A stretch of DNA of 55,233 nt from a bacterium (GTDB lineage Bacteria; Armatimonadota; JACIXR01). Below the pieces are notes generated by a model, which had not been told where the DNA came from, did not search any database, and saw only the letters and a program-made list of their open reading frames with translations. Position 1 is the stretch's first letter. The number at the start of each line of letters is the position of its first letter. Both the position numbers and the translations under genes were made by a program. Shown one piece after another: positions 3,075 through 42,962 of the stretch. The stretch is from positions 1-55,233 of the forward strand of contig JACIXQ010000005.1 in assembly GCA_014360465.1 (NCBI GenBank), in the 5' to 3' direction.

Positions 3075-4172
3075 ATGAAAAGGAAAAATTACTTCCTCCC
3101 TTTTATCGCCATACTGATAATTTTGACAGGTTGCTCCACCACTCCTGAAAGCCAAGCCCTAAAGAAAGTGAGAGATGGTATACAACTCCTTATCCAAAAC
3201 GGTTTTCCCACGGAGAAAGCTACCTACCTCCTTGAAGAAGCTTCAAAACAAATTAAAGACCCTTTTCTTGAAGAAACCGTCGCCCTTTTCTATATCGCCC
3301 AACAGTCCCCTCCTCAGTGGGATAAAGCTATACCACACCTTGAGAAAAGCAGAACAGGTTTCGCCTCAATAGTCAGAGCAGAAGCAGAAATGGAGAAGAA
3401 GAATTGGAACGAGGCTATGAAATATCTTGAAAAAAGAAAGGACCCTCTTTCCCTTCTTCTTTCGGCTTATTGCCTGCTGAAAATAGGGAAAACAGCGGAA
3501 GCCAAACAAAAGCTTGCCGAAGTAAGTATTAGCAAGGAAAAAATCCCTCAACCTCTCATTTTCAATGCTATGGTCAAATCCCAACCCCTTCCCTGTGTCA
3601 ATCTTCGTTACTACTCTTTGAAATGGGTCTGGGATAACCTTGAAGAAATCGGCAGGGAAATCGGAGAGAGATTAGGAGAAAAGGATGCTCTGCGGCTCGT
3701 TTATCGGCAACTTGCTGATTATGCCAATGTTGAGCCGGAATTCACCGCTTCTCTGTCTCTCTTGAGCTACGCCGTTAATGAAAAAGAACGAAGGGTATTA
3801 GAGAAGGCTAAGGAGGATTTCTCCCGGGAAGCGGGAAGACTTGAGGGAGAAACCATCGGTGGGCTGTACCGCCTAATTCGTTTGCTCGGCGTTATAGCTA
3901 TCGGTGGTGTCATTTTGGTGTTTGCTGGAATCATTATGAGCATGGCAGGACTGGTCAAGGGTAGAGAACACCCCCTTTGGAAAAGGGGATTCGCAGTTGC
4001 CGGCTCGGGCTTCGCCCTATGGATTATCCTCCTATTACTTTTCCACCCATTACCTGCAGGTGGAATGGTGCAAGGGTACATTGGTCGCAAATTCTATAGA
4101 AAGCAAGTGGAGTTGATAAAAACCCATAAGACTAAACTCGATAACGAATTAAGAAGCATTCAAGGGAGGTAA
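3075..4172 (+). CDS. Lipoprotein with two C-terminal membrane helices, function unknown
   Basis: 365 residues. The N-terminus is a lipoprotein signal with lipobox LTGC and modified Cys20. Residues of about 25-230 are helical and charged, reminiscent of TPR-like helical repeats (for example KNWNEAMKYLEKRKDP and LLSAYCLLKIGKTAEAKQKL). Two hydrophobic helices follow at about 270-293 and 304-325, then a basic tail. An upstream in-frame extension of 48 codons exists, but ATG 3075 is chosen because the lipoprotein signal starts there and a promoter sits just before it. The gene ends four bases before the giant GH13-like gene, so the two are probably cotranscribed. A role in assembling or anchoring the secreted enzyme is only a guess from position. 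Confidence 0.8.
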   Translation: MKRKNYFLPFIAILIILTGCSTTPESQALKKVRDGIQLLIQNGFPTEKATYLLEEASKQIKDPFLEETVALFYIAQQSPPQWDKAIPHLEKSRTGFASIVRAEAEMEKKNWNEAMKYLEKRKDPLSLLLSAYCLLKIGKTAEAKQKLAEVSISKEKIPQPLIFNAMVKSQPLPCVNLRYYSLKWVWDNLEEIGREIGERLGEKDALRLVYRQLADYANVEPEFTASLSLLSYAVNEKERRVLEKAKEDFSREAGRLEGETIGGLYRLIRLLGVIAIGGVILVFAGIIMSMAGLVKGREHPLWKRGFAVAGSGFALWIILLLLFHPLPAGGMVQGYIGRKFYRKQVELIKTHKTKLDNELRSIQGR

Positions 4173-4176: not shown

Positions 4177-7100
4177 ATGGAAAAAATACTTGTTTCCCTT
4201 TTCACCATCCTGATATTAACATTGAGTTCCGCCAAAGCAGAGGAGATCTTCCTTAAGGAAAATTCTAACGATATAATCTTTGGAAATTCCCTGATAAGTT
4301 TACATTTCTCCAAAGCTGATGGCTTCCTTCGTTCTTTAATCTATCAACCACTGAACCTCCAGATAATAGGTAGAGGAGATTCATCATCTACCCTTGATAT
4401 CCGTGTGGATGGTCAATGGCTGGTTGAAAAACTGGCAATTAGGGAAGCGCTGAAAAACAAATCGGTTTACATAGAGGGGAAGTGGAGATTTGCCCTTGAT
4501 CCAGAAAATGTCGGACTGCAACAGGGCTGGCATAAGGTAGAATTTGACGATTCCAAATGGGATGAGATATCCCTCCCCGGTACTTGGGAAAAAGCAGGCT
4601 ATACACAGGTTTTCCCTTCTTCACCTTCACCCACCTGGTCTCCTTACAACGGTTTTGCCTTCTTCAGAAGGAAGGTCTTTATCCCCAAGGAGTGGAAAGA
4701 CAAGGAACTGCTCATATATCTTGGCTCCATAGATGATTTCGACTGGGTTTACTTCAATGGAGAGCTAATAGGGCACACAGGGGATCAGGTACCTAACTGG
4801 TGGGAAACTCCTCGCCATTATGTAATCCCTCCCAATCTCGTAAAATTCGGGGAAGAGAACACAATTTCTCTACGCGTCTACGACAGGGGTGGCGAAGGTG
4901 GCGTTATGGGACCTATTTTCCTTATCAAAAAGGACGATTGGGATGGATTGGGAAACCCAATAAAATTGGTTGGTTACGAAGTCAAGAACGAGGGAAAAGG
5001 CAAAAAGCTTATTGTCAGAAGCGGGATAGGCGACTGGATACTTGAGAATCACTATACGATATTTCCCGGCACCGATGTGGTTCTACGAGAAGGTAGGATA
5101 GTTTACAATGGAAGCGAATCTCCTCATATCAGCGACCTTCGCTTCTCCCTTGATGGAGTTTTAATAGGCGATAAGGAAGATTGTTGGTGGACAATCCCCT
5201 CCAATTTCCCCCCGAAAAGATACAGATTCGAGCAGGAAGGAAGAACTATCAGCGATGATTATAGCTGGTCAAGTAACCGTTGCGTTCTTGTGCGAAACGA
5301 TGGGCTCGGTGTTGGTTTACTAACAATCTTCTATTCGGAGACGGAAGGAGCAAGTGCCTATATTAGAGAGGGCAAGGATGCTTTGGATATAGTTCATACA
5401 TTATCAGCAGCAGATGTTATGAAAGTCAGAAAGGAACTGGAAGGTGGCACGCAGATAATCAGGGTTATTAAGGGTGACCTTGAGGATATGCTTAAGAAGG
5501 AAAGGGAAATTTATGACATCATCGGTCTGACTCCTCCTCCCGATAGACCAGATTGGGCGAGAAAGGCGATAATTTACTCCGCCTATCCTGGAGGGACTAT
5601 GGACGGAGGGTTACAGGATGTTGGAGGTTTTGATAACTTTTCCAATTATCTCCCTCATCTTGCCGATATCGGCTTCAATGTGCTTTGGCTTCTACCCGTT
5701 TGGCCAGGGCTTTATGGTCCCACGGACTATTATAAGATTGAAGAAACCCTTGGTGGAATAGAGGGTGCAAGAAGATTTATAGAAAAAGCCCATAAATTAG
5801 GGCTAAAGGTGCTGTTCGATTTGATCCCTCATGGTCCTCGTGAGGAATCTGGATTGTTAGAAAAGCTTCCCGAAGCTGTCTCCAGGGACGAAAATGGCAA
5901 AGTCATTTACTGGTGGGGTTGCCTCTCCTGCGATTATGCTAGCGTAGCCTGGCAAAAATATATGGCTGAGCACGCCGCTTATTGGGTAAGGGAACTGGAT
6001 GTGGATGGTTACAGGGTTGACTGCGGAGCTGGGGGACCAGCTAACTGGGACCCCAATTCACCTCATCGTCCTACTCTATCAGGTCTCTGGGGAGGATTGC
6101 AGATACTATCTAAATCAAGGGAGGAAATGAAAAAATACAAGAGCGAAATTATGCTCCTTCCAGAAGCAACTGGTCCCTGGTTCTTTAGGTATAGCGATGT
6201 CGTTTACGATTTTCCTTTTATGTTTATCTGCCAGGATTACTCTCGCCATCCCAGAGATGAGTGGATAAGATGGTTTCAGGAATGGCTGGAATACGAGAAA
6301 TATGCCTACCCAAAGGGTGCGACCTTGATGAGATTCGTAGAAAGCCACGACACAGTTCGTTTTGCTGGCTTAAATGGACAAGGTTCGTTCAATGCGTTTC
6401 TTGCCCTTTGTGCCCTTATAGAAGGAGCTCCTATGGTTTATCATGATGGTGAAATTGGCAGAAGCCCCTTCCTTAAACATATTTACAAAATTAGGAAAGA
6501 AAACGAAGAGCTATCAATCGGTGAAGCCCATTACCTTGCCGTAGAAGCAAACGATAAGAATGTATTCACCTGCCTACGGGTCCTCGGAGATAGAATAGCT
6601 GTTGTTGCTATCAATATGTCAGGACAGGAAAAAGAAGTTGAACTAAGAATAGGAAAACGATACATACCAACTCGGAGGGATTTGGGGTTCTACGAAGTTT
6701 TTGAGGGCAGGGCAGTGAAAGCAGAATGGAAGAAGGACAATCTCTCCCTGAAATTGAGCATAGGACCTTATTCTCCAGCCATAATCCTGATAAGGAAGGA
6801 AAAACCCTCCATAGATAGGGATGCGATTTATCCGCCCATTGAAAGTGCCAAAAAGGTGCAAGGTTCTACTGAGCCATCCTTCCGAGAACTTGAAGGAAAT
6901 ATAATCGTGGAGAACGAGACTTACAAAGCCATAATAGACACTAATAGCGGGATGTTGAAATATCTCTCCACGAGAAAGGGTGAAAACTGGATAGATGATA
7001 TGGTATGGGAAGAAGGAAAAAGAAGATTAGGCATAGGTGAAAGGCTCAGCACAAGTGGAATTAATCTATCCCACCAAATAGAGAGAGGAAATGGCGAAGT

Positions 7101-8367
7101 ATTTGTCCGCTTTACAGGTTATTGCGATTGGGCAAGACTTGGAATCCTCTACCGTTTTGACCAAAGCAGAATAGATGTCCTACTAAGTTTACACCCAACG
7201 AAAGAAGTAGGTTTGATGAAAGGCGAGCTTTGGCATTGGTTCAAACTAAAGGGGGTTCAGCATTGGTTTGTAAATACCCTTGAGGCAAACCTTTACGATG
7301 AATTCTATATTCGCCATTTTAAGGAAACAAAAGGCGGAAGATATTGGCATACCCCCTATCTGTTTGATTCAAGTCGCTGTCCCTTGAATCCCTATTACCC
7401 TTTGATATCCGCAATCAGGGGCAACGAATACCTTGCCATCCTTTTGCCCCCATTTTATACTCTCCCCGAGAACATCTATATCCGAGAGAAGTTAAGGGAT
7501 GAAGGATTTCATATCTTGCTTTCTATGGCGGATGGAAGGAATGGTTGGAAGATTGCTCCCGGCGAGGTGTATGAGATGAGGTATTCAATCCTCATCGGAA
7601 AAGGAGGAATACCCATAGGGGAACCAGGAAAAGATTTACCACTTCTAACCTGCGACGGGGCCAATTACTTGATAGAAACAAGCCATTACAAAGCCGTTCT
7701 ATCAAGGAGAAATGGGCAAGTGAATAACATAATCTCAAGGGGCAAGAGTCTACTCCAGGGCGCTGAGATATATTCCGATAGAGGAATCTACGGGGAGTAT
7801 TACGACTCCCTGGGAAATGCCTTTTCTTTAATTGGCACATCAAATAACGACCCCGAGGTTGAACTCGCTTTTCAAAAAGAAGACGGGAAAATTAGAATCA
7901 TCACCCATAGCTTTCTCAGAGAGGGCAATAGTGGTTGGAACAATGTAGCGAGACCGCTGGTGGAATACCAAGCTGAATATGAATTTAAAGATAAATCGCC
8001 CTCTATCGGAGCCAAAATAAAGGTGCGACCATTCGTTGAAAAACAGACTACCGCCTTTCTCGCCCAAAGGCTCGACTTTAAAGAAATAAAAGCCTGTTAC
8101 GCCGAAGGGCAGGAAATCTCGCTCCAGCAGACGGGGAGGGTTTGGGAGAGCAGAAATTACCAATTAGAAAAAGCCAATATAATTTTAAGGGGAGATAAGG
8201 CAAAGATAGAACTCAAAGTAACCAAGATACCGGAGGGTGGAAATCTGTTCATTTATAATTCTGGCAATGGCGATATAATAGTGTTTTTCGCATATATGGA
8301 CGGAGATTTCAATATCAGTCCAAAATGGTATGAATTTTCCTACGAGATGGGGTGCATTCAGCAATGA
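4177..8367 (+). CDS. Secreted multidomain GH13-like (alpha-amylase superfamily) protein
   Basis: 1396 residues, starting at an ATG with a good GGGAGG site. Order seen: signal peptide (1 to about 21); a beta-sandwich segment; a jelly-roll at about 100-260 resembling the sugar-binding domain of GH2 enzymes (WHKVEFDDSKWDEISLPGTW, then WVYFNGELIGH); another beta region; a TIM barrel at about 455-790; and two more beta-sandwich modules to the end. The barrel carries GH13-type regions: D548 in DLIPHG (region I, lacking the usual Asn-His), R613 and nucleophile D615 in GYRVDCG, acid/base E663 in LLPEATG, and H724-D725 in ESHDT. All three catalytic acids are therefore present, so it should be active on an alpha-glucan or related glycan, location periplasmic or extracellular. 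The substrate is unknown. The last module is homologous to the next gene product. Family call is good; subfamily not assignable. Confidence 0.85.
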   Translation: MEKILVSLFTILILTLSSAKAEEIFLKENSNDIIFGNSLISLHFSKADGFLRSLIYQPLNLQIIGRGDSSSTLDIRVDGQWLVEKLAIREALKNKSVYIEGKWRFALDPENVGLQQGWHKVEFDDSKWDEISLPGTWEKAGYTQVFPSSPSPTWSPYNGFAFFRRKVFIPKEWKDKELLIYLGSIDDFDWVYFNGELIGHTGDQVPNWWETPRHYVIPPNLVKFGEENTISLRVYDRGGEGGVMGPIFLIKKDDWDGLGNPIKLVGYEVKNEGKGKKLIVRSGIGDWILENHYTIFPGTDVVLREGRIVYNGSESPHISDLRFSLDGVLIGDKEDCWWTIPSNFPPKRYRFEQEGRTISDDYSWSSNRCVLVRNDGLGVGLLTIFYSETEGASAYIREGKDALDIVHTLSAADVMKVRKELEGGTQIIRVIKGDLEDMLKKEREIYDIIGLTPPPDRPDWARKAIIYSAYPGGTMDGGLQDVGGFDNFSNYLPHLADIGFNVLWLLPVWPGLYGPTDYYKIEETLGGIEGARRFIEKAHKLGLKVLFDLIPHGPREESGLLEKLPEAVSRDENGKVIYWWGCLSCDYASVAWQKYMAEHAAYWVRELDVDGYRVDCGAGGPANWDPNSPHRPTLSGLWGGLQILSKSREEMKKYKSEIMLLPEATGPWFFRYSDVVYDFPFMFICQDYSRHPRDEWIRWFQEWLEYEKYAYPKGATLMRFVESHDTVRFAGLNGQGSFNAFLALCALIEGAPMVYHDGEIGRSPFLKHIYKIRKENEELSIGEAHYLAVEANDKNVFTCLRVLGDRIAVVAINMSGQEKEVELRIGKRYIPTRRDLGFYEVFEGRAVKAEWKKDNLSLKLSIGPYSPAIILIRKEKPSIDRDAIYPPIESAKKVQGSTEPSFRELEGNIIVENETYKAIIDTNSGMLKYLSTRKGENWIDDMVWEEGKRRLGIGERLSTSGINLSHQIERGNGEVFVRFTGYCDWARLGILYRFDQSRIDVLLSLHPTKEVGLMKGELWHWFKLKGVQHWFVNTLEANLYDEFYIRHFKETKGGRYWHTPYLFDSSRCPLNPYYPLISAIRGNEYLAILLPPFYTLPENIYIREKLRDEGFHILLSMADGRNGWKIAPGEVYEMRYSILIGKGGIPIGEPGKDLPLLTCDGANYLIETSHYKAVLSRRNGQVNNIISRGKSLLQGAEIYSDRGIYGEYYDSLGNAFSLIGTSNNDPEVELAFQKEDGKIRIITHSFLREGNSGWNNVARPLVEYQAEYEFKDKSPSIGAKIKVRPFVEKQTTAFLAQRLDFKEIKACYAEGQEISLQQTGRVWESRNYQLEKANIILRGDKAKIELKVTKIPEGGNLFIYNSGNGDIIVFFAYMDGDFNISPKWYEFSYEMGCIQQ

Positions 8368-9146
8368 AACGGCTTTTCCTGCTCCTTTCCTTGACTTTAT
8401 CAATCATCATCTGTTATGGAAAAATCGCCTTGCAAAAGAACGCAGATGAGGTCGTAATCAGAAATGATTATATCTCCCTTCACTTATCCAAGGATAGAGG
8501 GTGGCTACCTGATAAATTGGAATATTCGGGAATAGGAACCATCCTGAGTGATTTCCATATTTATACAGATTGGGGTATATACGAGAGGGGCTATGTTGGG
8601 AGCAAAGAAGAAAAAGAAGGTAGGATAAGTATCGACGAGAAACAAGGCGAAGTAACGGTGACCGCAGAGGGAGAACTGAAGTCAAAAGACAAAAGAATGG
8701 AAGAGAAAATCGGGTATATTGTGAAGTTCGTAGTTAGTAACGAACCCCGATTGAAGGTTGAGGTAGAACTTAAGCCGCAGATGAAACCAAGAAAGGTTTC
8801 TGCATTCCTTGCCCATCTATTCCAGGTACACTCTGCAAAGCAATGGATGGTAAACGGTTTGGATGGCATTATCTCGGAGGATATGAACGGCGAGGTTGGG
8901 AGAATGTGGGAATCGCGGAATGAACCCTTAAGTATCGATGACCCTTTCATCATCGTTATAACCAACTGGGGACAAATTCACATAGATGGTATCAGCTCTG
9001 AACCACAAGCTCAGAATATATTTTTATTCAACGGAAGTGGTGGTAACCTCGTTTTATTCTTCGGCTTCTTAGATGGAGGTCTCCAAGAAATCTCCACTCC
9101 ATTCAGAGTAAGCTATAACATAGAGTTCAACCCAATTACGAGATAA
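8364..9146 (+). CDS. Secreted stand-alone copy of the C-terminal domain of the preceding GH13-like protein
   Basis: 260 residues with a signal peptide (MKRLFLLLSLTLSIIICYG). The ATG at 8364 overlaps the stop of the preceding gene as ATGA; a GTG at 8352 in the same frame lies before the signal peptide and is not favoured. The whole mature part is beta-rich and aligns with about the last 240 residues of the upstream protein: NADEVVIRNDYISLHLSK versus its N-terminal-type module, AFLAHLFQ versus AFLAQRLD, GRMWESRN versus GRVWESRN, and FFGFLDGGL versus FFAYMDGDF. I do not recognise a named family; a galactose-mutarotase-like beta-sandwich is a possibility. It most likely binds the same glycan as the large enzyme or assembles with it. 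No catalytic motif is evident. Confidence 0.8.
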   Translation: MKRLFLLLSLTLSIIICYGKIALQKNADEVVIRNDYISLHLSKDRGWLPDKLEYSGIGTILSDFHIYTDWGIYERGYVGSKEEKEGRISIDEKQGEVTVTAEGELKSKDKRMEEKIGYIVKFVVSNEPRLKVEVELKPQMKPRKVSAFLAHLFQVHSAKQWMVNGLDGIISEDMNGEVGRMWESRNEPLSIDDPFIIVITNWGQIHIDGISSEPQAQNIFLFNGSGGNLVLFFGFLDGGLQEISTPFRVSYNIEFNPITR

Positions 9147-21766: not shown

Positions 21767-24700
21767 CTATTCCAAATAGAGCTCGCCTAACCTGGTAAGC
21801 TCGTGAAAGTTGGAGACGAAATTCGGGCTCCAAGCGAGGAGCTCCCTTTGCCTCGTTTCGTCTAAACTGAATGAGGCACGATAGAAATTGATGTAAATCC
21901 TGTTAGTCCTCCCAATGCTTTCCTCAAGGCTCTTCAAGGGGAGAGAAAAAAGCACTATCCATCTATCGGGAAGCACTCTTGAAATCGCCCTCACCCCGCT
22001 TTCCCACTCCTTCATCCCTCCCCTCACTTCCTCATAGAAATACGACTTCACCTTACCATCGGGAGCTATTCCAATCTGATAATAGGGAGCATCCCTCTGA
22101 CCGGCGAGGAAAATCTCCCAATCATCCCCGCTCCATATGTCGTCCTTGTTCACCAACCTCTCCCCGGGAAGAAGCTCCTCCAACCTCAGATAAAGATACT
22201 CCCCATCGTGGGCAAGCCTCGCCTCTAACTTCCGCTCCGTGGGATAGCCCTCAACTGTAAACCATTTATTGATAACAACCGCTTTATCCCAATCCACCTT
22301 TTCCGGGTCTCCATCGGCTTTAGAGATTGAGGGAACATAGACCCCCGGCGGCGCCTCCGCCTTGAGCTTCACCCTTTCGGGCTCAAGCGTCTGCCTCTTT
22401 TCCTCCGCCCCTTTCTTCTTCAAATACATCTCTCTCCCCTCAACCATATACTGCCATACTCCCTTCTCAAACAGGGAAACCCTCTTCTTTTCCAGCTCGG
22501 TCTTCGCCAATTTCTTCGCCTCCTCCATCAACGCTTCCAGCTCCCTCATCCTCTCTTCTGTTCCAAGATAGCCCCAGGCAATCTCCTCCGTTTGATGGAA
22601 ATGCCTCCTCTCCCTTTGCACCTCCAGGGGATAATTTGTCGGGTCGCTATATATTTTTTCAATGAGAAGATACATCTTCTTCATCGGCTCGCTTGCCGAG
22701 CCATAATAAAGAGAGAAGAACTCGTCAAGGAGCTTATCAACATTCAAGCTTGGGTCATCAAGAAGTTTGAGGGTAATATAAGTATCTATCTGCTCTCCCA
22801 AACCATTGAGGAAAACTCCTCTAATTCCATCCTTTGCGAACATCTTATAAGCCTTATCAATGGTGTGGGCGAAGAAGCCAGGGAAACAATGCCAGCCACC
22901 GTTCATCGCCACTTCCTCAGGGAAGCAGTAATAGAGCCAGAGATAGAATCTCCTACCCTTGTCTTTCGTTATCCAATCACGATAGAAATAGAGGTCGTTA
23001 TCCTTCATCGCTGGCGCCCACCAGTTGCGGATATGAATGCACATCTGAAGGGAGACATTGGGAAGGAGCTTGACCTTCTGGGGATAATAGGCATATTCCC
23101 AATAGGCGAGGGTGGCGATGAACTTATCGGGATGGGATTTGGCTATCTCACTCGCCACCTTGTTGACGAAATTGAAGAAATAATCGCTGGCATAGCCATT
23201 GGAGAAGAAGGCATTTCGCCTTTCCGGGTTCAGCTGGCGCTGGCATTCCTCGCATTTACACCAAAGATTGTTATCCATCGGAACGAGGGCGAAGTAATCT
23301 CCCGCCCCAACAGCTCCCGGCTTCAATCCCTTCCCATCAAAGTAATCCCTCGCATCCTGAACTATCTGGGCGATGAAGCCGGGATTGGAGTAGCACATCT
23401 GGGGAGGCTGACCCTCGTATCCCTTGGCAAAGAATTCCGGGTGGGTGTTGAGGAAGCGATCGTAGTAGCCATAGAAGGAATGGTTGCAGTTATATCTTTC
23501 CCCTCCGACCTTATGCCTTGCCCAGAAGAGGTTCATCTCCTGTCTTGTGGGATGGTCCCAGAGGGTCTCAACTATTCCGAAGGCAAAAGGAGGCCAGAGC
23601 CCCCGATAGAGGAAGGCTGGTCGCCTTTGGATGTTCTGCGGTTTAACGGCGAGGGTTGATTTCTGAGGATACCAAATCATATCCTCCTTCGGTCCGAACC
23701 AGCGGACATCACAGAAACGCTCAAGGAAATCGTGAACGGCATAGGATGTTCCCTGTCCGGAGAACATATCGGGCGGGCTTATGGGACGTTCTAACCGAAC
23801 TCCCCTTGCATCCCTGGGAACTCCCTTCCCTTCATCGAGATGGAGGAGAAGAAGGGTATGGGAATCCGGCTCAAATGGCTTATTGGGAAGGGAAGGAAAG
23901 CGGACGATATCGGAGATTCGCACCTCGTCAATCCTGCCGGAGAAGGCGTTGCCGACCCTCTGCTGGCTGACATCGGGCAAACCACCGATTAGGAGGGTTG
24001 TCCCATTACAGGTCGTCTTCTTGTAATCCGTTGTTCCCTGGCTCTTGCCATCCACAAAAAGTTCCATCTTTCCCTCACGGGCGCTGTAGGTAGCGAGGAT
24101 GTGGTGCCAGCCTGGGGATAGCTCATCGGAGAGGATGCTGTGGACAATCTCCCCATCATAGGTAGCGTATCTTATGCGGTTCTTCTCCCATCTGCCGATT
24201 ATGTGGTAGGTCCAGGGATTGGCGCCGTCAAGGCGGATGATTGTTCCCTCGCCGCCTTCTTGTGGTTTTTCTTCAAGGTAGACCCAGACCTCAAAGGAAC
24301 CCTCATCGTCAGAGAGGTTGAAATCATCTACACAGAGAGTTCCTTTGCCGGCGAAGGAGAGGGATTTTCCGAATTTACCTTCAGCCCAGCCTATTTCACC
24401 GAAGATGCGGATGTTGTCGGAGAAGGGGATTGGTTCGTCCTTGCCCAAGAGGACGAGGGTATTGGGATAGAAACGGATTATATATTCCTGGTCCTTCAAG
24501 TTTTGGGCTTTTATTCCCAGTTTTTGCGTAGCTTTGCTTTCACCGACGAGGATACGGTTGCCCTTGACTTTCTGGTCATCGTAGGCGATGGGGAGGAGGG
24601 CTCCTGTGATTTTCTGGATATGGTAGCGTAGTTCCCAGACGGCGAAGGCGGTGGAATGGTTCATATTCTTGGAGATAACGATTGTGGCGGACGGTTTACC

Positions 24701-24787
24701 ATCCTTGACGATGAGGAAATCAGCGGAATAGAGGGTTAAGGAGAAGGAGAACAACAAAAGACAATAAAATTTAGAAGCGAGTTGCAT
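21767..24787 (-). CDS. Secreted DUF4838 protein (GH67-like) with inserted LamG and C-terminal CBM9 modules
   Basis: 1006 residues from ATG 24787, chosen because GGAAAGGAGAG lies upstream and a signal peptide (to about residue 21) begins there; an in-frame ATG at 24844 has neither. Residues of about 22-118 look like the N-terminal domain of alpha-glucuronidases (RILVGESKATQKLGI, IIRFYPNTLVLLGKDE). A LamG/concanavalin-A-like module (about 122-335, with SFEVWVYLEEKP and WHHILATYS) interrupts it, and the fold resumes at about 345 with GTSYAVHDFLERFCDVRWFGP. The DUF4838 TIM-barrel follows (about 385-700), with Cys510, Cys512 and Cys515 in WCKCEECQ. A helical region and a CBM9-like module (about 840-1005, YLYLRLEE then DDWEIFLAG) end the protein. 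It likely acts on or binds an acidic or plant-type glycan; activity is unproven. Confidence 0.82.
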   Translation of the reverse strand: MQLASKFYCLLLFSFSLTLYSADFLIVKDGKPSATIVISKNMNHSTAFAVWELRYHIQKITGALLPIAYDDQKVKGNRILVGESKATQKLGIKAQNLKDQEYIIRFYPNTLVLLGKDEPIPFSDNIRIFGEIGWAEGKFGKSLSFAGKGTLCVDDFNLSDDEGSFEVWVYLEEKPQEGGEGTIIRLDGANPWTYHIIGRWEKNRIRYATYDGEIVHSILSDELSPGWHHILATYSAREGKMELFVDGKSQGTTDYKKTTCNGTTLLIGGLPDVSQQRVGNAFSGRIDEVRISDIVRFPSLPNKPFEPDSHTLLLLHLDEGKGVPRDARGVRLERPISPPDMFSGQGTSYAVHDFLERFCDVRWFGPKEDMIWYPQKSTLAVKPQNIQRRPAFLYRGLWPPFAFGIVETLWDHPTRQEMNLFWARHKVGGERYNCNHSFYGYYDRFLNTHPEFFAKGYEGQPPQMCYSNPGFIAQIVQDARDYFDGKGLKPGAVGAGDYFALVPMDNNLWCKCEECQRQLNPERRNAFFSNGYASDYFFNFVNKVASEIAKSHPDKFIATLAYWEYAYYPQKVKLLPNVSLQMCIHIRNWWAPAMKDNDLYFYRDWITKDKGRRFYLWLYYCFPEEVAMNGGWHCFPGFFAHTIDKAYKMFAKDGIRGVFLNGLGEQIDTYITLKLLDDPSLNVDKLLDEFFSLYYGSASEPMKKMYLLIEKIYSDPTNYPLEVQRERRHFHQTEEIAWGYLGTEERMRELEALMEEAKKLAKTELEKKRVSLFEKGVWQYMVEGREMYLKKKGAEEKRQTLEPERVKLKAEAPPGVYVPSISKADGDPEKVDWDKAVVINKWFTVEGYPTERKLEARLAHDGEYLYLRLEELLPGERLVNKDDIWSGDDWEIFLAGQRDAPYYQIGIAPDGKVKSYFYEEVRGGMKEWESGVRAISRVLPDRWIVLFSLPLKSLEESIGRTNRIYINFYRASFSLDETRQRELLAWSPNFVSNFHELTRLGELYLE

Positions 24788-24901
24788 AATCAAACTCTCC
24801 TTTCCTATGTATTGAAAGTTTTGGCGAGAAAAACTTTTTCCCAAAACTTTCCATATGGATACCCGGAAAGGTAATCAGTACCTTCTAAAAAGGAAATGGT
24901 C

Positions 24902-25234: not shown

Positions 25235-26902
25235 CTAACCTTTCTCTTGGGGTTTCCACCCCAACTTCTCCAATGCCTCACAAGCTGCACGCCGAACATC
25301 CTCATTCCAATCCCTAAGCCTTTTTATCAATGGCTCCACTGCGCGCTTATCCCCTATCCTGCCCAATGCCTCACAAGCTGCATGACGAACTATCCAATAT
25401 TCATCCCTGAGCCTCTCTATCAATGGCTCCACTGCACGCTTATCTCCTATCTTGCCCAATGCCTCACAAGCTGCACAACGAATCCCCCAATACTTGTCCC
25501 CAAGGCTCTCTATCAAGGGCTCCACTGCACGGGTATCTCCTATCTTGCCCAATGCCTCACAGGCTCCACGACGAATTTCTTTATCCCTATCCCAAAGTCT
25601 CTCTATCAATGGCTCCAATGTTAGGTTAGCTACAGCTACCAGTGGATCAGAAACTGCACAACAAACATCTTCATCCTCATCCCCAAGTCTCTCTATCAAT
25701 GGCTCTACTGCTGGGAAACCTATCGCAATTAACGCCTCACAAGCTGCACGACGAACAGCCTCATCCCTATCCCCAAGTCTCTCTATCAATGGCTCCACTG
25801 CACGAATATCTCCCTCTGCTGATAATTCAGCAAGCTCATTAAGGGCTTCTTCCTCACCATCTAAGGCACCCATAACCGCTCTCGCCAACCTCCCTTCTCC
25901 TAACTTCTCCAATGCTTTACAAGCTGCACGACGAACAGCCTCATCCTCATCCCCGAGCCTCTCTATCAATGGCTCCACTGCACGCTTATCTCCTATCTTG
26001 CCCAGTGCATAACAAGCTGCACTACGAACAGACCTATCCTCATCCCCAAGCCTCTCTATCAATGGCTCTACTGCTGGGAAACCTATCGTTACCAGTGCAT
26101 CAGAGGCTGCACGACGCACAGTCCTATCCCTATCCCCAAGTCTTTCTATCAACGGCACCACTGCACGGGTATCTCCTTCTGCTGATAATTTAGCAAGCTC
26201 CCTAAGGGCTTCTTCCTTGCCCTCTAAAGCTCCTCTAACCGCCCTCGCCAACCTCCCTTCTCCTAACTTCTCCAATGCTTTACAAGCTGCATGACGAACT
26301 ATCCAATATTCATCCCCAAGTCTCTCTATCAATGGCTCCACCGCACGCTTATCCCCTATCTTGCCCAATGCCTCACAAGCTGCACAACGAACATCTTCAT
26401 CCTCATCCCCAAGTCTCCCTATCAACGGCTCCACCGCACGGGCATCTCCTATCTTGCCCAATGCTTCACAAGCCGCACGACGAACATATTCATCCCTATC
26501 CCCAAGTCTCTCTATCAAGGGCTCCACTGCACGCTTATCCCCTATCTTGCCCAACGCCTCACAAGCCGCACGACGAACAATCCTACGTTTATCACCAAGT
26601 CTCTCTATCAATGGCTCTACTGCTGGGAAACCTATCGTTACCAGTGCATCAGAGGCTGCACGACAAACAGTCCCGTGCCAATCCCCAAGCCTCTCTATCA
26701 ATGGCTCCACTGCACGCTTATCCCCTATCTTGCCCAATGCATAACAAGCTGCACGACGAACATATTCATCCCTATCACCAAGTCTCTCTATCAATGGCTC
26801 TACTGCACGAGGGTCCCCCAACTTCCCCAATTCCTCACAAGCTTCCAAACGCTCCCTCGCGGATGGACTCACAAGATTTTTGAGTGCTTCCTCAAAAGAC
26901 AT
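25235..26902 (-). CDS. HEAT-repeat protein (PBS-lyase-type repeats)
   Basis: 555 residues built almost entirely from 31-residue units of the form [31 protein letters not shown]. I count 15 canonical units and two degenerate ones ([16 protein letters not shown]) that break the array into blocks. There is no signal peptide, membrane helix or other domain, so it should be a cytoplasmic superhelical solenoid that binds a protein or tRNA-like partner. GGGAGGATGATAGAGG lies before the ATG. PBS-lyase repeats were named from phycobilisome lyases, but this architecture alone does not imply lyase activity and no phycobiliprotein gene is present. DNA repeats are so similar that unit number may vary between strains. 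Confidence 0.9.
25240..26860 (-). repeat. 93-bp tandem DNA repeat within the HEAT-repeat gene
   Basis: Units of 93 bases recur through the gene with long identical runs, for example CTATCAATGGCTCCACTGC on the plus strand. Two larger blocks of about 135 codons (degenerate unit, AEGD, then [15 protein letters not shown] units) look like a second-level duplication. Confidence 0.8.
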
Positions 26903-26976: not shown

Positions 26977-28758
26977 TCAACCCCCTATCACTACTATCGC
27001 CCATAAACCTAAATTAGTTAGATTGAAACTTATTCGCTCATCGCTGATTTTCAGGTTGACCTTCTGCATAGGCTTGCCTGGTATATAAACGCTCGCTTTA
27101 CCCGGAAAAGACTTGAGAACCTTCCCAAGCAGGGCTTTGCTGAGGGAAACCTCAATATCCACGGGTCTCACATCATCCCTCTCAAAATCATAATCCTGAT
27201 TTAAAAGATGACAGACTATGGGTGCATTCGCTGAGCCTGGTTTATAACGCAATGATACCCTCAACTTATCGCTCCCCCTTACAATGACCTGATTCCTAAA
27301 TTCCCATGGCAAAGAATCATATCCTTCCCACTGCAAAATTTTCTTCTTCTCCTGCCTTGCTAATTTCTCAATTTCTTTCGGAATTGAACCCTTCCCCTTT
27401 ATTAAAAGCCTGAATTTTTCCAAATTTTCCTTTTTTATTCCTCCTCTATCCTTCTCTGCCCCTATCACGCTGAAGGGAACATTCTTTTCAAGAAGCTCAA
27501 GAGAAGCCCCTCTTATATCATCAAATCCCTCGTCTGTATAAATGAAAGCCACATCGGAAAGGGAAACATATCCATCAAATAGACTCGCATTCTCCCTAAC
27601 GAAACGATAGAGCGGGGCGAAATCCTCGGGATTTCCTTCCCACCAATGCGTCCCTTTCTCTTGGGTATAACACCATTGATGATGGGGAACCATAAAAACA
27701 CTCCCGAAAGCATAAGCCTGGGCTATCCAGGTTCGCACCATACCGGGCTTCTCCTTCTCCGCAATGAAAGCCCAGTCATAACCACCTGCGGTCGCCGCCT
27801 GCCTCTTACCCAATCCCTCAACCAGACGATAGACGAATGCTGGCTCAAGATAAACCTGTTTTGTGTTCGCTTGGTGCTCCATCTCTCCACAGAAGAAATC
27901 CACCAAAGGAGCCACCCTCAGGGCTTCGGGGGTTGATGCACTTGAATTGACGCTGCGAAGAAGCGGTTTGCCTCGTATCTGCTCGGCATATTCAAATACC
28001 ATCCCAACCACCTTTAAGGAGCTCTCCCTTTGAAAGCTCTGATATAGGTCGGCTAAGGGCAAATTGCCTGCCTGTGCTCGCCAGCTATCCTTCGTCACAC
28101 CCTTTGATTTGAGAAAAACCGCATAATCAAAACTTTGAATATCCTCTATCCCCATCCTCTTCAATTCCTCTTCACCGAAATGAGCCTTCAACCAGTCTTT
28201 GAAGCCCTCTCGGCAATGCTCGCAGAAGCAACCACCGAACCAGGCGGAGCAAGCAGATGTTCCACGCCAGTCATCTATATGCAAGCCATCTATATCAGCA
28301 ACACAGGCTCTCTCTACCTGCTCCTTGAGATAAGCCCGATAATCGGGATTATTTGTGCAGAACCAATAGGCAGGATGACCATTGTGCCTATGGTCCCAGA
28401 GCCAGGGAACAGTCAGGGGATTCCCATCAAGGTCACGACAGATTGCTTTCTCAAATCCATCGGGACAAAAATCTATAAATCCTCCAAAATCAACGACGAA
28501 ATCAACACTTCCACAATATTTAAGACCAAATTTATGCGCTTCTTCAACCTGTTTCCTGAACCAGTAAACATCTTTATCATCTTTTGACCTTGACCGTCCT
28601 GCCCAACCGACCACCGTCCCGGAATATATCTCGTAAAGCTTCTTATCCCGAGGGGCATACATAAAGACCACATCGCTTGCTTGAAGCACAGGTCTTTCTC
28701 CTCGTATTGTAGCAACCAGTGAAAACAACATAGCGAAAAGCACCATCCTTCCTCCCAT
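26977..28758 (-). CDS. Secreted TIM-barrel glycoside-hydrolase-like protein (GHL family)
   Basis: 593 residues from ATG 28758, which has an AAGGGTGA-like site upstream and opens a signal peptide (MVLFAMLFSLVATIRG); a GTG at 28767 in frame is the alternative. The barrel contains DIDGLHIDDWRG (Asp162-Asp163) followed by Cys177, Cys179 and Cys182 in GCFCEHCREGF, the pattern seen in GHL6-like hydrolases. The C-terminal 150 residues are beta-rich. Asp or Glu at the barrel strand ends could be catalytic, but which one is not clear. It ends a four-gene minus-strand operon begun at 35230. No family with proven activity can be named from sequence alone. A secreted hydrolase or glycan-binding protein is the best guess. 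Confidence 0.7.
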   Translation of the reverse strand: MGGRMVLFAMLFSLVATIRGERPVLQASDVVFMYAPRDKKLYEIYSGTVVGWAGRSRSKDDKDVYWFRKQVEEAHKFGLKYCGSVDFVVDFGGFIDFCPDGFEKAICRDLDGNPLTVPWLWDHRHNGHPAYWFCTNNPDYRAYLKEQVERACVADIDGLHIDDWRGTSACSAWFGGCFCEHCREGFKDWLKAHFGEEELKRMGIEDIQSFDYAVFLKSKGVTKDSWRAQAGNLPLADLYQSFQRESSLKVVGMVFEYAEQIRGKPLLRSVNSSASTPEALRVAPLVDFFCGEMEHQANTKQVYLEPAFVYRLVEGLGKRQAATAGGYDWAFIAEKEKPGMVRTWIAQAYAFGSVFMVPHHQWCYTQEKGTHWWEGNPEDFAPLYRFVRENASLFDGYVSLSDVAFIYTDEGFDDIRGASLELLEKNVPFSVIGAEKDRGGIKKENLEKFRLLIKGKGSIPKEIEKLARQEKKKILQWEGYDSLPWEFRNQVIVRGSDKLRVSLRYKPGSANAPIVCHLLNQDYDFERDDVRPVDIEVSLSKALLGKVLKSFPGKASVYIPGKPMQKVNLKISDERISFNLTNLGLWAIVVIGG

Positions 28759-28769
28759 AATAATCACCC

Positions 28770-30716
28770 TTACATCTTCAACTTCTTAAGATAATAAACA
28801 CAGGCTCCAGCTGAGAGGTCAATCTCAAGTCCCTTCGTCATAAGAGCATAACCCGACGAAGTAAGCAATTTCTTCCTTTCTCTACCCCAACTCCGAATAT
28901 CTTCCACCATATATATACCTTCAGGGTCAAGACCTTTTAGAGGAAGGGTTCTCCCTGGACATTCGCCGGGCATCCTAAAACCCAGGACAATCGCCTCGTC
29001 TTTTTCCCGGGATACAAATTGGAGAACCTCTCCTTGTTTAGGAGCTTTAGAATGTCCTGTGAGGGGATAGAAATCCTGGACAAGGAGATGGCGAAATTCC
29101 TTATAAGTCATTATCAAGCTCTTCACCTTCTCCCTCAGCTCGGGGGACCAAGAAGCAACATCCCCATCAAGGGAAAAAGCCCCTATCATCCTGGAGAGGA
29201 AATCAAGGATGTCCCTACCCATATCCTTTCCACCTATGGGGGTTGGAACAGCACTATTGAGGAGATTACCAGGGAGAAATCTGTTCGCTCCGCTCTGCAT
29301 AAATCTGCATATATGTGGGTCATCGGTGTGGTCGGAAATCCAGATGGTGTGAGCACGCTTCAATGTCCCGAGGTCAATTCTTCTTCCTCCGGAGGCACAA
29401 CATTCTATCAAAAGAGCAGGATGTCTCCTCATTATCTCGTCAAGAACACGGTACAACCCTTCAATATATTTGAACTGAATCTCACCGGTTCTATCAGCTG
29501 ATTCCCAGAAGGGTTTTGGACCTATGTTGTAATCGTAGCGAATCCATCGCAAATCAAGCCTTTTCACCCATCCGCTTATGATTTCAATTATTCCATCCTG
29601 TGCTTCCTTATTGCTCAAGTCGAGGTGAAGGAACTCACCACCCAGGTCGAAAAACCAGTTTGGATGCTCTTTGACGATGTCGCTTTCCCGGTGCGCTCTT
29701 TCAACTTCAAACCACATCCCGAACTTCATTCCTTTGGAACGAACATATTCCGCGAGGTTCTCAATGCCTTTGGGAAATTTCCCCATATCCACCCGATTCC
29801 AATTGCCAACACCCTTGCTGAAATCTCCTTTATCGCCACAACCAGCATACCATCCCGCATCAAGGACGAAGTATTCTACGCCCAACTCGGCACAACGGTC
29901 AACCTGTTTACGCAAGAACTCCTCGTTGAAATCACAAGCTATGTGGAACCAATGGTCATAGCTGACGGGAGGAAGGAAAAGCTTGCCATCCAGCTTGGGA
30001 CAGTGGCTCTCGTAAAGGTAGCGTCGGAAAGCATTGCTTCCATCATCCAAATCCCCCTCAAAGAAAACGATATGAACTGGCGGAAGCGTGAGGGTTTCCC
30101 CTGGCTCAAGAACAAGTTGAAAAACAGGGATTCCTGCTGTTAGGGAGAGAAAAGGATGATGAACACTTATGAACCAGAGACCCGACCACTCCATCCCGAA
30201 CACCAGTCCAGCCTTATCAATCATTATCTCCATAATCGGCAGGTATCTGTTGGAAGAGCGACCATCGGGACCTGCCTCAATGGTCAACGGTTCGCTGGCA
30301 TAACTGAGCAATTCAGAGGTGAACTCCTGATAGGCAATCGGCGGATAGAAACCATCGGTCAAGCCACCACCTGAATATCGGAGGAAAATTGGTCTTTTGG
30401 GCTGAGACCAGAAAAGCGATAATGGATGAATGCCATAAAGAGGAGGGCAGGGTTTCTTCCCCTTGTTTTTCAAATTAACACTCAAAACAACCGCCCTTTG
30501 ATTCTCTACGAATTCAACTACCATAGCTCCTTGCAAATCGGAATATCCTCCCTCTCCTTCAACGAGGATTTCCCATCCCTCTCCCGTTCTTTTTTCTGCG
30601 AGAATCTTCCATTCAACCGCCTCTCCTGCTTCGCCCAGCAACCTCCAGCCTAAGCCATCTTCCAGCCCTTCCATCAACTCTTCGGGCATAAATTCCTGGA
30701 ACCATTTTTTAACCAT
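28770..30716 (-). CDS. GH36 family alpha-galactosidase-like enzyme
   Basis: 648 residues with the GH36 plan: N-terminal beta-supersandwich (about 1-235), TIM barrel (about 245-560) and a C-terminal beta-sandwich. Barrel landmarks are FVLDAGWY, GMKFGMWFEVER, the nucleophile Asp395 in RWIRYDYN, ECCASGGRRIDLG and the acid/base Asp462 in WISDHTDD. No signal peptide is visible, so it should act in the cytoplasm on galactosides imported from outside. GH36 also contains N-acetylgalactosaminidases and raffinose-type enzymes, so the exact substrate is open. It lies six bases after the GH42-like gene and two bases before the start region of the next gene. Confidence 0.92.
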   Translation of the reverse strand: MVKKWFQEFMPEELMEGLEDGLGWRLLGEAGEAVEWKILAEKRTGEGWEILVEGEGGYSDLQGAMVVEFVENQRAVVLSVNLKNKGKKPCPPLYGIHPLSLFWSQPKRPIFLRYSGGGLTDGFYPPIAYQEFTSELLSYASEPLTIEAGPDGRSSNRYLPIMEIMIDKAGLVFGMEWSGLWFISVHHPFLSLTAGIPVFQLVLEPGETLTLPPVHIVFFEGDLDDGSNAFRRYLYESHCPKLDGKLFLPPVSYDHWFHIACDFNEEFLRKQVDRCAELGVEYFVLDAGWYAGCGDKGDFSKGVGNWNRVDMGKFPKGIENLAEYVRSKGMKFGMWFEVERAHRESDIVKEHPNWFFDLGGEFLHLDLSNKEAQDGIIEIISGWVKRLDLRWIRYDYNIGPKPFWESADRTGEIQFKYIEGLYRVLDEIMRRHPALLIECCASGGRRIDLGTLKRAHTIWISDHTDDPHICRFMQSGANRFLPGNLLNSAVPTPIGGKDMGRDILDFLSRMIGAFSLDGDVASWSPELREKVKSLIMTYKEFRHLLVQDFYPLTGHSKAPKQGEVLQFVSREKDEAIVLGFRMPGECPGRTLPLKGLDPEGIYMVEDIRSWGRERKKLLTSSGYALMTKGLEIDLSAGACVYYLKKLKM

Positions 30717-30722: not shown

Positions 30723-33119
30723 TCACTCCTTCTCCATTTTCACGATGCTTCCCAAGGACTCTATATTGAAAATCTTCCCATTTAGGGAAATTTGACCGTT
30801 CCAATCTGACTGGGGCAGGAAGAAAAGCAGTTTCTCCCCATATCTCTCAAATGGGACGATTGTAAGATCTGCGTATGTTTTAGCAGGATGGTTAAGAACA
30901 CTTACTCCCGATTTCTGGAGAACAGAAAGAGCCCTGTCCACTTGAGGGAGCTCCCAAAGTGGAAAACCGGAACGGCAGATGAGCCGGGGAGGTGTATTTC
31001 CTTTATCCTTAAGCCTATAGGTATCGCCAAGTATCTTTTTGCCGATTGGCTCCCTAAAGCGATATGTTAAAAATGGTAGTGATTGAGAAGGTATTTTCCT
31101 TCCGCTCATATCGTAGAGGGCAAACCTACCCGAGCTGATGAGTTTCACTCCCGAACCAGAAGCATCCCTCAATGTCCTGAGAGCTTCACAGGTTATATAG
31201 GCGCAATCGGGTATAATCACCGCTTTGTATCTTGACAGGTCAGCTGATTCCAAACTATGTAGGGTATATATATCAGGACATATGCCTGCGCGCACGAGCA
31301 ATTTATACCAACCCATAAAGTCAGCCCAGTCATTGGGCTCTTCTTGAAGGCAGGGATAAAGGGGCATTCGGGGTTGAATTAATGCCACCTCGCAAACTGG
31401 TCTGGCTCCCACGAGCTCAAGAGCGGTCTGTTTCACCCTCTCGATCATCCTTTTTAGCGGTTCTATGCCCAGCTCGGAATAGTTGTAATCAGGGGTACCG
31501 AACCAGCAGTAATATTGGATTCCGCTATCCGCTCCTGCGTGCTGTAGCAGGGAAAGGGATGTGCGCGTTAATCCCATCTCACCGAGATAAATTCCCTTGG
31601 TGAAATCAAGCAAGTCAATCGCCCAGATGGGTTTACCATATCTCCTCACCATATCCACAGAGGCTGTGAGGGAATCAAAATCGCCCTCTGCGGAATTGAT
31701 TTGCAATCCCATTATATGTTGGTGTTTTGCGTTTTCCGCCCAGTAGTCAAGCGCGATTGCCACATCTTGAGCATAGTCCCACTCAAAGGGATTGGCAAAG
31801 GCGAATGTAATGTAGCTGACTATCGGACGGGTAGAATCCACTGCGACTATCTGCTCAGCCATCCAGTCTATGAACTTGGCAAAAGTTTCAAATCTATAGT
31901 TAAACCAATCATCCACAACCGCCAGGGGATAGCCTGGCTTACCATCAAGTTTTAGCTCGGGTTGATAGCATATAACGAGCTTTCCAACACCTTCCCAGGA
32001 ATGGGAAACTCGCTCGGGTTGTTCCGAGGACCAGGCAATGAACTGCCACTTTCCGAGCGAGGGGTCAAATGTGGGGTTAGGAGCAAGTTGCTGACCTTTC
32101 TCATCGTATATTTGAAGTGAATGGAAAATAACCTTTCCCTTGCCTCTTAGTTTCATCAACAGCCAGGCTCGGGAAGCTCCCTCCGGAACGGTTATAACAT
32201 ACTTGATTAATTCCGCACCATTCTGCTTCGTGCAAGGGGGACTCCAATCAATCCTAAACGGTCGGGGGTCGTCAGCCTTTAACCAGGCGATTTCCAACAG
32301 GGAATCGCCGCAGACGAGGTTTTCCGTTGTAAGCTTGAGCTCTACCGTTAGTTTATCACCCGGGTTAACCGGTATGTGGCTTTCCTCGGTAGTGCACCAA
32401 CAGAGGTCGCAGGAAACACTTGAGGGAACAAATTCCCCTTGCGACTGGATGCCGATTCCCGAAGGATAAAGGACAGGAGGTTGAATCTCATCCCAGCTTT
32501 TATATACCGTTCCCCACCTTTCGTTCAACCTTTTCAATGAACCGTATTTTCCCATTAGCCATTTCCTGAAGTCCTCCTTATCTGCTTTTGAATATGAATA
32601 GCTCAGGGGATGCCACCATTCACAACCGTTGCTATAGCCATATATCAATTGGTTATGTTTATGATTTTTAAGATAGGAGACGGTCTCCCTAATAAAGCGA
32701 GAAAGATAGAAACGGTAGAGGGCGGATTGATAAGATGGGTCGTCAATGACACCACCTTTTGGAGAAGCCATCGTCTCACCCTGCTTCTTCAACTTCTCAA
32801 CCAGCCAGCGCACCCCAGCGGAGTGGGCGGGACCCGCTTCCATAAGGAAAATAAGCTTCGTTCCCGTGCTGTTTGCCCAGTCTAACTGTTTATCAAGAAG
32901 GGAGAAATCGAATTTCCCCTCTTCTGGTTCAATAAGCGTCCAGGGAGCCCTCACTATGCAGACATTCGCTCCTGTCTTCGGGACATTCTCGTCCTCGTGT
33001 GTTATTAGGGGATAGTGGGATACAAAACCGATGGGATACTCCCTTTGTTCCAACTCCCCCGCCTCCATTCCGCAAGAGAAAAGTGCAACAATTAGGAACA
33101 GATGCATCAAATGCCTCAT
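30723..33119 (-). CDS. Secreted GH42-like protein with inserted carbohydrate-binding-like module
   Basis: 798 residues, signal peptide to about residue 19. The barrel starts with the GH42/GH-A-like strand GANVCIVRAPWTLIEPEEGKFDFSLLD. LKRLNERWGTVYKSWDEIQPP is a typical GH42 segment. GYSNGCEWWHP (Glu167) may hold the acid/base, but the usual Asn-Glu pair is not intact. A beta-sandwich (about 230-365, with PVNPGDKLTVELKLTTEN and AWLLMKLRGKG) like a CBM4/9 or CBM6 module is inserted before the second half of the barrel. An alpha/beta amidotransferase-like domain follows (CPDIYTLHSLESADLSRYKAVIIP). Its ATG overlaps the upstream gene stop as ATGA. Possible beta-galactosidase-type activity; loss of activity cannot be excluded. 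Confidence 0.75.
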   Translation of the reverse strand: MRHLMHLFLIVALFSCGMEAGELEQREYPIGFVSHYPLITHEDENVPKTGANVCIVRAPWTLIEPEEGKFDFSLLDKQLDWANSTGTKLIFLMEAGPAHSAGVRWLVEKLKKQGETMASPKGGVIDDPSYQSALYRFYLSRFIRETVSYLKNHKHNQLIYGYSNGCEWWHPLSYSYSKADKEDFRKWLMGKYGSLKRLNERWGTVYKSWDEIQPPVLYPSGIGIQSQGEFVPSSVSCDLCWCTTEESHIPVNPGDKLTVELKLTTENLVCGDSLLEIAWLKADDPRPFRIDWSPPCTKQNGAELIKYVITVPEGASRAWLLMKLRGKGKVIFHSLQIYDEKGQQLAPNPTFDPSLGKWQFIAWSSEQPERVSHSWEGVGKLVICYQPELKLDGKPGYPLAVVDDWFNYRFETFAKFIDWMAEQIVAVDSTRPIVSYITFAFANPFEWDYAQDVAIALDYWAENAKHQHIMGLQINSAEGDFDSLTASVDMVRRYGKPIWAIDLLDFTKGIYLGEMGLTRTSLSLLQHAGADSGIQYYCWFGTPDYNYSELGIEPLKRMIERVKQTALELVGARPVCEVALIQPRMPLYPCLQEEPNDWADFMGWYKLLVRAGICPDIYTLHSLESADLSRYKAVIIPDCAYITCEALRTLRDASGSGVKLISSGRFALYDMSGRKIPSQSLPFLTYRFREPIGKKILGDTYRLKDKGNTPPRLICRSGFPLWELPQVDRALSVLQKSGVSVLNHPAKTYADLTIVPFERYGEKLLFFLPQSDWNGQISLNGKIFNIESLGSIVKMEKE

Positions 33120-37644: not shown

Positions 37645-38697
37645 TCATCTCCTTCTGGGGTGGTGCAGGGGTTCAGAGGAAGGAGTAAGGTCAGGGAGCG
37701 AGGAAATTGAGCGGTTTCTATTAAATCCTTTCCCGATATTAGGATTGGGCGCTTCCCTTAAACTCTTCTCGCTTTTAAGGATATTCCCCTCCGCATCGGT
37801 CTTTATTAGATAGACATCAGCTTCTCCTTGCCCGAAGGAGTCGGTCACACCCACTATTATGTAGCCTCCATCTCTTGTTTGCTGAACGGAGAAGCCATCA
37901 TCCCAGTCAGTGCCTCCGAAAGTCCTTTCCCATAGCTTTTTTCCCTTTGCATCGGTCTTTATGAGATAGACATCTCTTCCTCCTTGCCCGAAGGAAAGGG
38001 TTTCACCCACTATTATGTAGCCTCCATCTCTTGTCTGCTGAACGGAGTTGCCCCAATCGTTCTTAGTGCCTCCGAAAGTCCTTTCCCATAGCTTTTTTCC
38101 CTTTGCATTGGTCTTTATTAGATAGACATCAGTTCCTCCTTGCCCGAAGGAATAGGTGTAACCCGCTATTATGTAGCCTCCATCTCTTGTCTGCTGAACG
38201 GAGAAGCCAGCATCCCAGTCAGTGTCTCCGAAAGTCCTTTCCCATAGCTTTTTCCCCTTTGCATTGGTCTTTATGAGATAGACATCCGCTTCTCCTTGCC
38301 CGAAGGATTCGGTGTAACCCACTATTATGTAGCCTCCATCTCTTGTCTGCTGAACGGATTTGCCCCAATCGTTCTTAGTGCCTCCGAAAGTCCTTTCCCA
38401 TAGCTTTTTCCCCTTTGCATCGGTCTTTATGAGATAGACATCCGCTTCTCCTTGCCCGAAGGATTCGGTGTCACCCACTATTATGTAGCCTCCATCTCTT
38501 GTCTGCTGAACGGACCTGCCAGCATCCCAGTGAGTGCCTCCGAATGTCTTTTCAAAGGTGGATTCCGTGGGTGTAGAAGACACACTGGGACCTCTTCCCC
38601 CTCCGCGCCCCCCACAACCTTGGAGACTCAGAAGTAGGACAATAAAAAATAGTGAAGCAAGAAACCTCTTTAAGAACGCACTTTGCATCACCTTCAA
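37645..38697 (-). CDS. Lipoprotein with five 52-residue repeats, probable beta-propeller-like surface protein
   Basis: 350 residues. Lipoprotein signal ending LSLQGC (Cys28) and a Gly/Arg-rich tether. Five nearly identical units follow, of the form FGGTxxDxGxSVQQTRDGGY, then IIVGxTxSFGQGxxDVYLIK, then TDAKGKKLWERT. This is the pattern of the GGT-DGGYI repeat proteins found in many environmental genomes, where each unit is probably a propeller blade. The last unit changes to TDAEGNILKSE and a basic, Pro/Ser-rich tail ends in HHPRRR. The start is TTG 38697 (AAAGGA upstream) or ATG 38688; both keep the signal. No catalytic motif is apparent. The orientation is opposite to both neighbours. A surface adhesion or binding role is inference. 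Confidence 0.8.
   Translation of the reverse strand: MKVMQSAFLKRFLASLFFIVLLLSLQGCGGRGGGRGPSVSSTPTESTFEKTFGGTHWDAGRSVQQTRDGGYIIVGDTESFGQGEADVYLIKTDAKGKKLWERTFGGTKNDWGKSVQQTRDGGYIIVGYTESFGQGEADVYLIKTNAKGKKLWERTFGDTDWDAGFSVQQTRDGGYIIAGYTYSFGQGGTDVYLIKTNAKGKKLWERTFGGTKNDWGNSVQQTRDGGYIIVGETLSFGQGGRDVYLIKTDAKGKKLWERTFGGTDWDDGFSVQQTRDGGYIIVGVTDSFGQGEADVYLIKTDAEGNILKSEKSLREAPNPNIGKGFNRNRSISSLPDLTPSSEPLHHPRRR
37790..38545 (-). repeat. 156-bp tandem repeat coding the lipoprotein blades
   Basis: Five units at 156-base spacing; for example CTGAACGGA recurs on the plus strand 156 bases apart near 37882 and 38038. Differences between units are few and concentrated in two variable positions per blade. Confidence 0.85.
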
Positions 38698-40874: not shown

Positions 40875-40879
40875 GCACT

Positions 40880-42958: not shown

Positions 42959-42962
42959 AGGA

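Follow-up and report, generated by a model that had tools for sequence, protein, structure and literature searches.

A conserved GH13-type enzyme lineage with glycine at the region-I histidine position, from an Armatimonadota genome

An open reading frame (ORF) in a 55,233-nucleotide stretch of an Armatimonadota genome (assembly GCA_014360465.1, contig JACIXQ010000005.1, positions 1 to 55,233; hereafter the window) encodes a 1396-residue protein in which the catalytic triad of glycoside hydrolase (GH) family 13 is combined with a region I that lacks the usual Asn-His pair. The locus thus raises the question of whether such a protein is an active enzyme, to which lineage it belongs, and on what it might act. 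Judged from its sequence, we consider it probable, at roughly 0.7, that the protein is an exported retaining enzyme with a GH13-type barrel that hydrolyses or transfers alpha-glycosides, and that it belongs to a distinct branch of the alpha-amylase superfamily which has apparently not been characterised. The gene and the parts of it on which this reading depends are as follows.

4177..8367, + strand: main enzyme gene, 1396 amino acids (ORF from ATG 4177 to the stop ending at 8367; full-length orthologues in congeners)
4177..4239, + strand: probable signal peptide, residues 1-21 (MEKILVSLFTILILTLSSAKA), read from a basic start, a hydrophobic core and AKA preceding residue 22
5530..6486, + strand: GH13-type barrel, residues 452-770 (PF00128, profile matches to PDB structures, invariant columns)

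Catalytic residues, region I and distribution of the family

The enzyme gene has a ribosome-binding-like GGGAGG seven bases 5' of its ATG, and the signal peptide indicates that the product is probably exported. The genome is a draft in 161 contigs, so that so long an ORF could in principle be an assembly or fusion artefact. This explanation is refuted by full-length orthologues in two genomes of the same genus (65% and 63% identity), which lie in other neighbourhoods, and by recurrence of the module order across the phylum; its probability is close to nil. In a Pfam search, the whole protein gave just two significant domains, PF00128 (E = 1.3e-19), which corresponds to the GH13 barrel, and PF02837. 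The closest solved structures of the barrel are 4gkl and 3dhu, and the best of these, 4gkl, is matched with E = 1.5e-25 by the single sequence and E = 1.5e-56 by the family profile.

Residues Y513, H552, G553, R613, D615, E663, H724 and D725 all fall within the barrel. The sequence-only reading of this DNA had named D615, E663 and D725 as catalytic, and in the alignment they do take the places of the nucleophile, acid/base and stabiliser of GH13, in the order of regions II, III and IV. All three are invariant in 35 aligned barrels of the family, as are Y513, G553, G611, R613 (two residues before the nucleophile) and H724 (directly before the stabiliser). N623-W624, following the nucleophile, is nearly invariant. 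The residue preceding the nucleophile is Val in 23 barrels, Leu in 10 and Ile in 2, that preceding E663 is Pro, Ala or Gly, and E722, in conserved sequence region (CSR) IV, is found in 26.

Region I reads D548-LIPHG, so the Asn and His positions are occupied by H552 and G553, in agreement with the earlier remark that the Asn-His pair is missing. Position 552 is His in 25 of the 35 barrels and Tyr in the other 10. Of the seven residues classically invariant in GH13, six are therefore retained and the seventh, the region-I His, is Gly throughout, both in the 35 barrels and in all eight sampled members from a second phylum, which also keep the triad, R613, H724 and Y513. The region-I His is among the most conserved positions in GH13 (PMC11239784). 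In our motif table, other GH13 proteins have it (mostly as Asn-His) wherever region I is readable, with three exceptions that are relatives adjoining the family (L099, VIHG; L100, TVHG; L045, IPQG). Many family members have Val-Pro in region I, as do GH70 enzymes. The GH70 glucansucrases are also similar in that the same His is replaced: Gln at this position, with no change in the remaining six, is what distinguishes GH70 from GH13 (PMC4919382). Their barrels are circularly permuted, whereas regions I to IV follow the GH13 order here and the replacement is Gly.

A protein that has lost a residue kept in nearly all of GH13, and that carries many non-catalytic modules, could instead be mainly a glycan-binding or structural protein with a degenerate barrel, and L100 is a relative without nucleophile and stabiliser. 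Against this, the triad and four more active-site residues are invariant in the 35 barrels and in the eight second-phylum members. Such conservation would be unexpected in a dead barrel, and we reject this explanation as very improbable.

The family was delimited with a profile of the N-terminal sandwich plus barrel, built from 22 of its sequences. With a threshold of 450 bits, 51 proteins were recovered from 44 of the 291 genomes of the phylum, a count that is a lower bound as four candidates were scored per genome. A wide gap separates these from the next matches, a contig-edge fragment (295 bits) followed by GH13 proteins outside the family, none above 206 bits. A second phylum, to which a Victivallales genome belongs and which NCBI calls Lentisphaerota, has relatives scoring at least 400 bits in about 18 of 289 genomes. 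The eight sampled second-phylum members have D..VPHG, the triad, the N-terminal sandwich and the C-terminal sandwich C2, and do not have the GH2-type insertion described below. The family core is N-terminal sandwich, barrel and C2. Among plasmid records, no protein covers most of the enzyme. One genome (G028) has two family members in tandem (L041:6750-13117); the C1/C2 pattern seen in the window protein is absent from them.

Position among GH13 subfamilies and possible substrates

We placed the barrel in a tree of 71 barrels comprising the family, Escherichia coli references for GH13_5, 9, 11, 19, 21 and 29, 4gkl and 3dhu, plasmid-borne GH13 proteins and 20 loci of the phylum. This covers about ten GH13 references against 49 published subfamilies, with GH13_38 and the newer CAZy subfamilies outside the set. 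The family forms one group (Shimodaira-Hasegawa-like approximate likelihood ratio test, 92), apart from these references and from the further 20 GH13 proteins that come from the phylum. Its barrel does not group with any of the E. coli references, and 4gkl and 3dhu are placed elsewhere. The exact, deep branching is unsure because several references have long branches. The barrel accordingly lies outside every subfamily tested, and among the roughly ten references there is no known subfamily that contains it with the same module order. The earlier proposal of a new subfamily holds to this extent, and the module order is also not in PMC11239784. What changes is its scope, as the protein belongs to a family present in at least two phyla and is not a single oddity. 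The lineage is apparently undescribed in the open-access literature searched, and CAZy may still have classified it.

The nearest structures and profiles would also suit an ordinary alpha-glucan hydrolase, acting on starch, glycogen or maltodextrin, that is close to GH13_48, GH13_49 or GH13_38, carries accessory domains and is little affected by the region-I change. The two closest structures, 4gkl (a Thermotoga neapolitana maltogenic amylase) and 3dhu (Lactobacillus plantarum), are founding members of GH13_48 (PMC11239784). They share the barrel and triad with the enzyme and, like most family members, have a Glu before the region-IV Asn/Ser-His-Asp. The closest NCBIfam model is that of the haloarchaeal MalA (E = 2.9e-19), at 69 bits far below its cut-off of 875. 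A CSR-IV Glu is common to GH13_38 and GH13_49 (PMC11239784), and in GH13_49, which includes the MalA-like alpha-amylase of Haloarcula japonica, a domain (N1) precedes the barrel as well. The profile of the N-terminal sandwich gave no match to the Halarchaeum MalA-like protein.

The published signatures of these subfamilies fit the family poorly. In GH13_48, CSR-I ends in NH and CSR-V in L-[DN], and most members have three canonical domains; in GH13_48 and GH13_49 the nucleophile is immediately preceded by Cys in 81% of members and CSR-VII ends in GQ; GH13_49 has [WY]-[GA] ending CSR-II, Asp before the acid/base and Glu in CSR-IV (PMC11239784). Compared with GH13_48, the family has HG rather than NH, Val or Leu (rarely Ile) and in none of the 35 barrels Cys before the nucleophile, and Cys, Ala, Ser, Phe or others before the CSR-V Asp (CLSCD, CYDCD, VLAAD), and the enzyme additionally has the N-terminal sandwich, C1 and C2. 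In place of GQ in CSR-VII, HDG precedes the Glu in the window protein, and most of the family has EQE or EAE. Of the GH13_49 features, neither the CSR-II ending nor the Asp before the acid/base is found, CSR-I does not end in NH, and the Glu in CSR-IV is present (E722), as it is in GH13_38. Together with a tree that parts the family from 4gkl and 3dhu, one without GH13_38 and most other subfamilies, these differences make an ordinary alpha-glucan hydrolase unlikely.

For the preferred reading, a retaining enzyme of a distinct lineage, catalysis would proceed by double displacement, with D615 as the nucleophile that forms the glycosyl-enzyme and E663 as acid/base, and could end in either hydrolysis or transfer. 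Gluco-type contacts to O2 and O3 would be kept because H724, D725 and R613 are retained. In GH13 enzymes the region-I His normally contacts the subsite -1 sugar near O6; here this contact would be lost and Gly would open up space, and the sugar favoured by the enzyme may therefore differ or be substituted at C6. C1, C2 and the product of a downstream gene, D, might serve as non-catalytic glycan-binding or assembly modules, and an upstream lipoprotein as anchor or scaffold. More tentatively, the lineage could represent a GH family or subfamily branch in its own right, one that diverged from GH13 as GH70 did, through loss of the region-I His, and that handles subsite -1 sugars GH13 cannot accept (6-substituted or 6-deoxy glucosides, alpha-xylosides, uronides), with the sandwiches and D forming an extracellular glycan-processing complex.

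The lineage is a real and conserved additional branch of the alpha-amylase superfamily, of a known kind. No alpha-glycosidase family has been studied more than GH13, and a fixed Gly with intact catalytic residues in at least two phyla offers a natural test of the role of the region-I His, as well as a candidate for new specificity. Because its genome encodes no other PF00128 protein, close paralogues would not confound a search for the substrate of the enzyme.

Modules around the barrel

The remaining parts of the protein are arranged as follows.

4240..4464, + strand: N-terminal sandwich, first part, residues 22-96 (family alignment, N profile)
4465..4929, + strand: GH2 N-terminal-type (GH2-N) sugar-binding jelly-roll, about residues 97-251 (PF02837, E = 5.5e-12 at 99-202)
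4930..5526, + strand: N-terminal sandwich, second part, residues 252-450 (family alignment, N profile)
6487..6801, + strand: small post-barrel domain, residues 771-875 (conserved in the family alignment; PF16657 Malt_amylase_C matches weakly, with a sub-threshold E of 0.01)
6853..7620, + strand: C1 sandwich, residues 893-1148 (hhalign with C2, probability 99.0)
7636..8358, + strand: C2 sandwich, residues 1154-1394 (hhalign with downstream protein D, probability 99.9)

The GH2-like jelly-roll proposed from the sequence alone is matched by PF02837, and its position needs refining, since it does not simply precede the barrel. In the alignment, residues 22-96 and 252-440 together make up a single N-terminal domain, which runs without interruption in most family members, and the GH2-N module is nested inside it, in a few lineages. 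In L035, L069, L072 and L077, the N profile matches in two parts, one on either side of the insertion. The window's genus, L072 and the group L035/L069/L077 share one insertion site; mapped on the barrel tree, this pattern requires three changes, and a single origin is not rejected (approximately unbiased test, p = 0.117). Other proteins, both of this genome and of the phylum, contain relatives of the module with 35-50% identity, and a contig scan with the single-sequence query returned solely a GH2-N relative from a genome of the Victivallales. Unlike GH2 enzymes, the protein has no GH2 catalytic domain, and the module lies nested in a different sandwich, in a protein of GH13 type. It is thus an example of a GH2-N domain nested in a domain of an unrelated glycosidase.

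C1, C2 and D are mutually homologous (hhalign probabilities of 99.0 for C1-C2, 96.0 for C1-D and 99.9 for C2-D), and C2 is kept in most family members. A model of D from three sequences, of medium confidence (predicted local distance difference test score, pLDDT, 68; predicted template modelling score 0.72), matches the galactose mutarotase GalM (Foldseek E = 1.1e-7). D is accordingly predicted to have the galactose mutarotase fold seen in GalM, in aldose 1-epimerases and in the super-sandwich of GH2, GH38 and PL26, and C1 and C2 probably share it by homology. Searching Pfam and the PDB with profiles of C2, C1 and the N-terminal sandwich yielded no credible relative by sequence. The mutarotase-like sandwiches of the earlier reading thus find support for C1 and C2, through the D model and hhalign. 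For the N-terminal sandwich there is a weak profile match in the PDB (E = 1.1), and its hhalign comparison with C1, C2 and D was not significant. A single-sequence model of residues 22-878 had a pLDDT of 35 and was discarded as unusable.

Mutarotase catalysis by C2 or D was considered and rejected. Aldose 1-epimerases have conserved catalytic His residues, whereas no His is invariant in the C2 or D alignments and there is no sign of an epimerase active site; such catalysis is therefore unlikely, and we read these modules as non-catalytic. In one relative, L100:490-3483 (G088), STN-like (secretin short domain) repeats interrupt the N-terminal sandwich; its nucleophile and stabiliser positions are altered (RIER, SHAT), and it may be non-catalytic.

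Neighbouring genes

Two genes directly flank the enzyme gene.

3075..4172, + strand: putative lipoprotein (lipobox LTGC) with weak tetratricopeptide repeat similarity (orthologues in G001 and G002)
8364..9146, + strand: gene D, an exported stand-alone C2-type sandwich (hhalign, D model, adjacency)

The mechanical ORF of the lipoprotein begins at TTG 2931, with homology from near 3075, and its stop (4170-4172) is followed by a four-base gap before the enzyme ATG. The mechanical ORF of D begins at GTG 8352; the start codon of D overlaps the enzyme stop (ATGA). The trio of lipoprotein, enzyme and D is kept in three congeneric species (window, G001 and G002) with differing flanks. A D-type gene adjoins the enzyme gene in six genomes, including G011, G003 and G016, and in part in G052, at a contig end; in G017 there is none directly 3' of the enzyme gene. 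The enzyme thus has a conserved stand-alone partner built from one of its own modules.

Some neighbourhoods suggest specificity for non-glucan alpha-sugars, for example alpha-galactosyl, alpha-N-acetylgalactosaminyl or alpha-xylosyl groups, in partnership with GH42- or GH129-type enzymes. GH42-like and GH129-like genes directly follow the trio in G001 (L027:2919-7348), L045 lies beside a GH42 gene and L035 beside a GHL6/GH42M gene, and beta-galactosidases typically carry a GH2-N module. These neighbours vary between genomes and are absent beside the window gene. Both phyla are rich in such genes, so that adjacency by chance is likely. We regard a non-glucan specificity of this kind as doubtful.

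Several observations also weigh against the reading of the protein as an active enzyme of distinct specificity. GH42- and GH129-like neighbours accompany the trio in just one congener. The genome also has GH57 and glycosyltransferase family 5 (GT5) genes, and alpha-glucan metabolism is therefore independent of the enzyme gene. In the window, the flanks are housekeeping genes (glmU, prs and pth; by reading, also HIT and uracil-DNA glycosylase) and give no hint of a substrate.

Farther along, positions 21767-47000 of the window hold a dense glycan-related block. It starts with a DUF4838 and LamG protein (21767-24844) and includes GH42-like genes (26977-28767, 30723-33119, 40871-42958 and 45151-46863), GHL6/GH42M genes (33116-35230 and 42840-45143) and a gene that is GH36-like by reading (28770-30716). 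The same interval contains a HEAT-like repeat protein (25235-26902) with long overlapping ORFs on the opposite strand, probably a by-product of the repeats, and, at 37645-38697, near-identical repeats (FGGTxxDxGxSVQQTRDGGYIIVG) behind a lipoprotein-like start.

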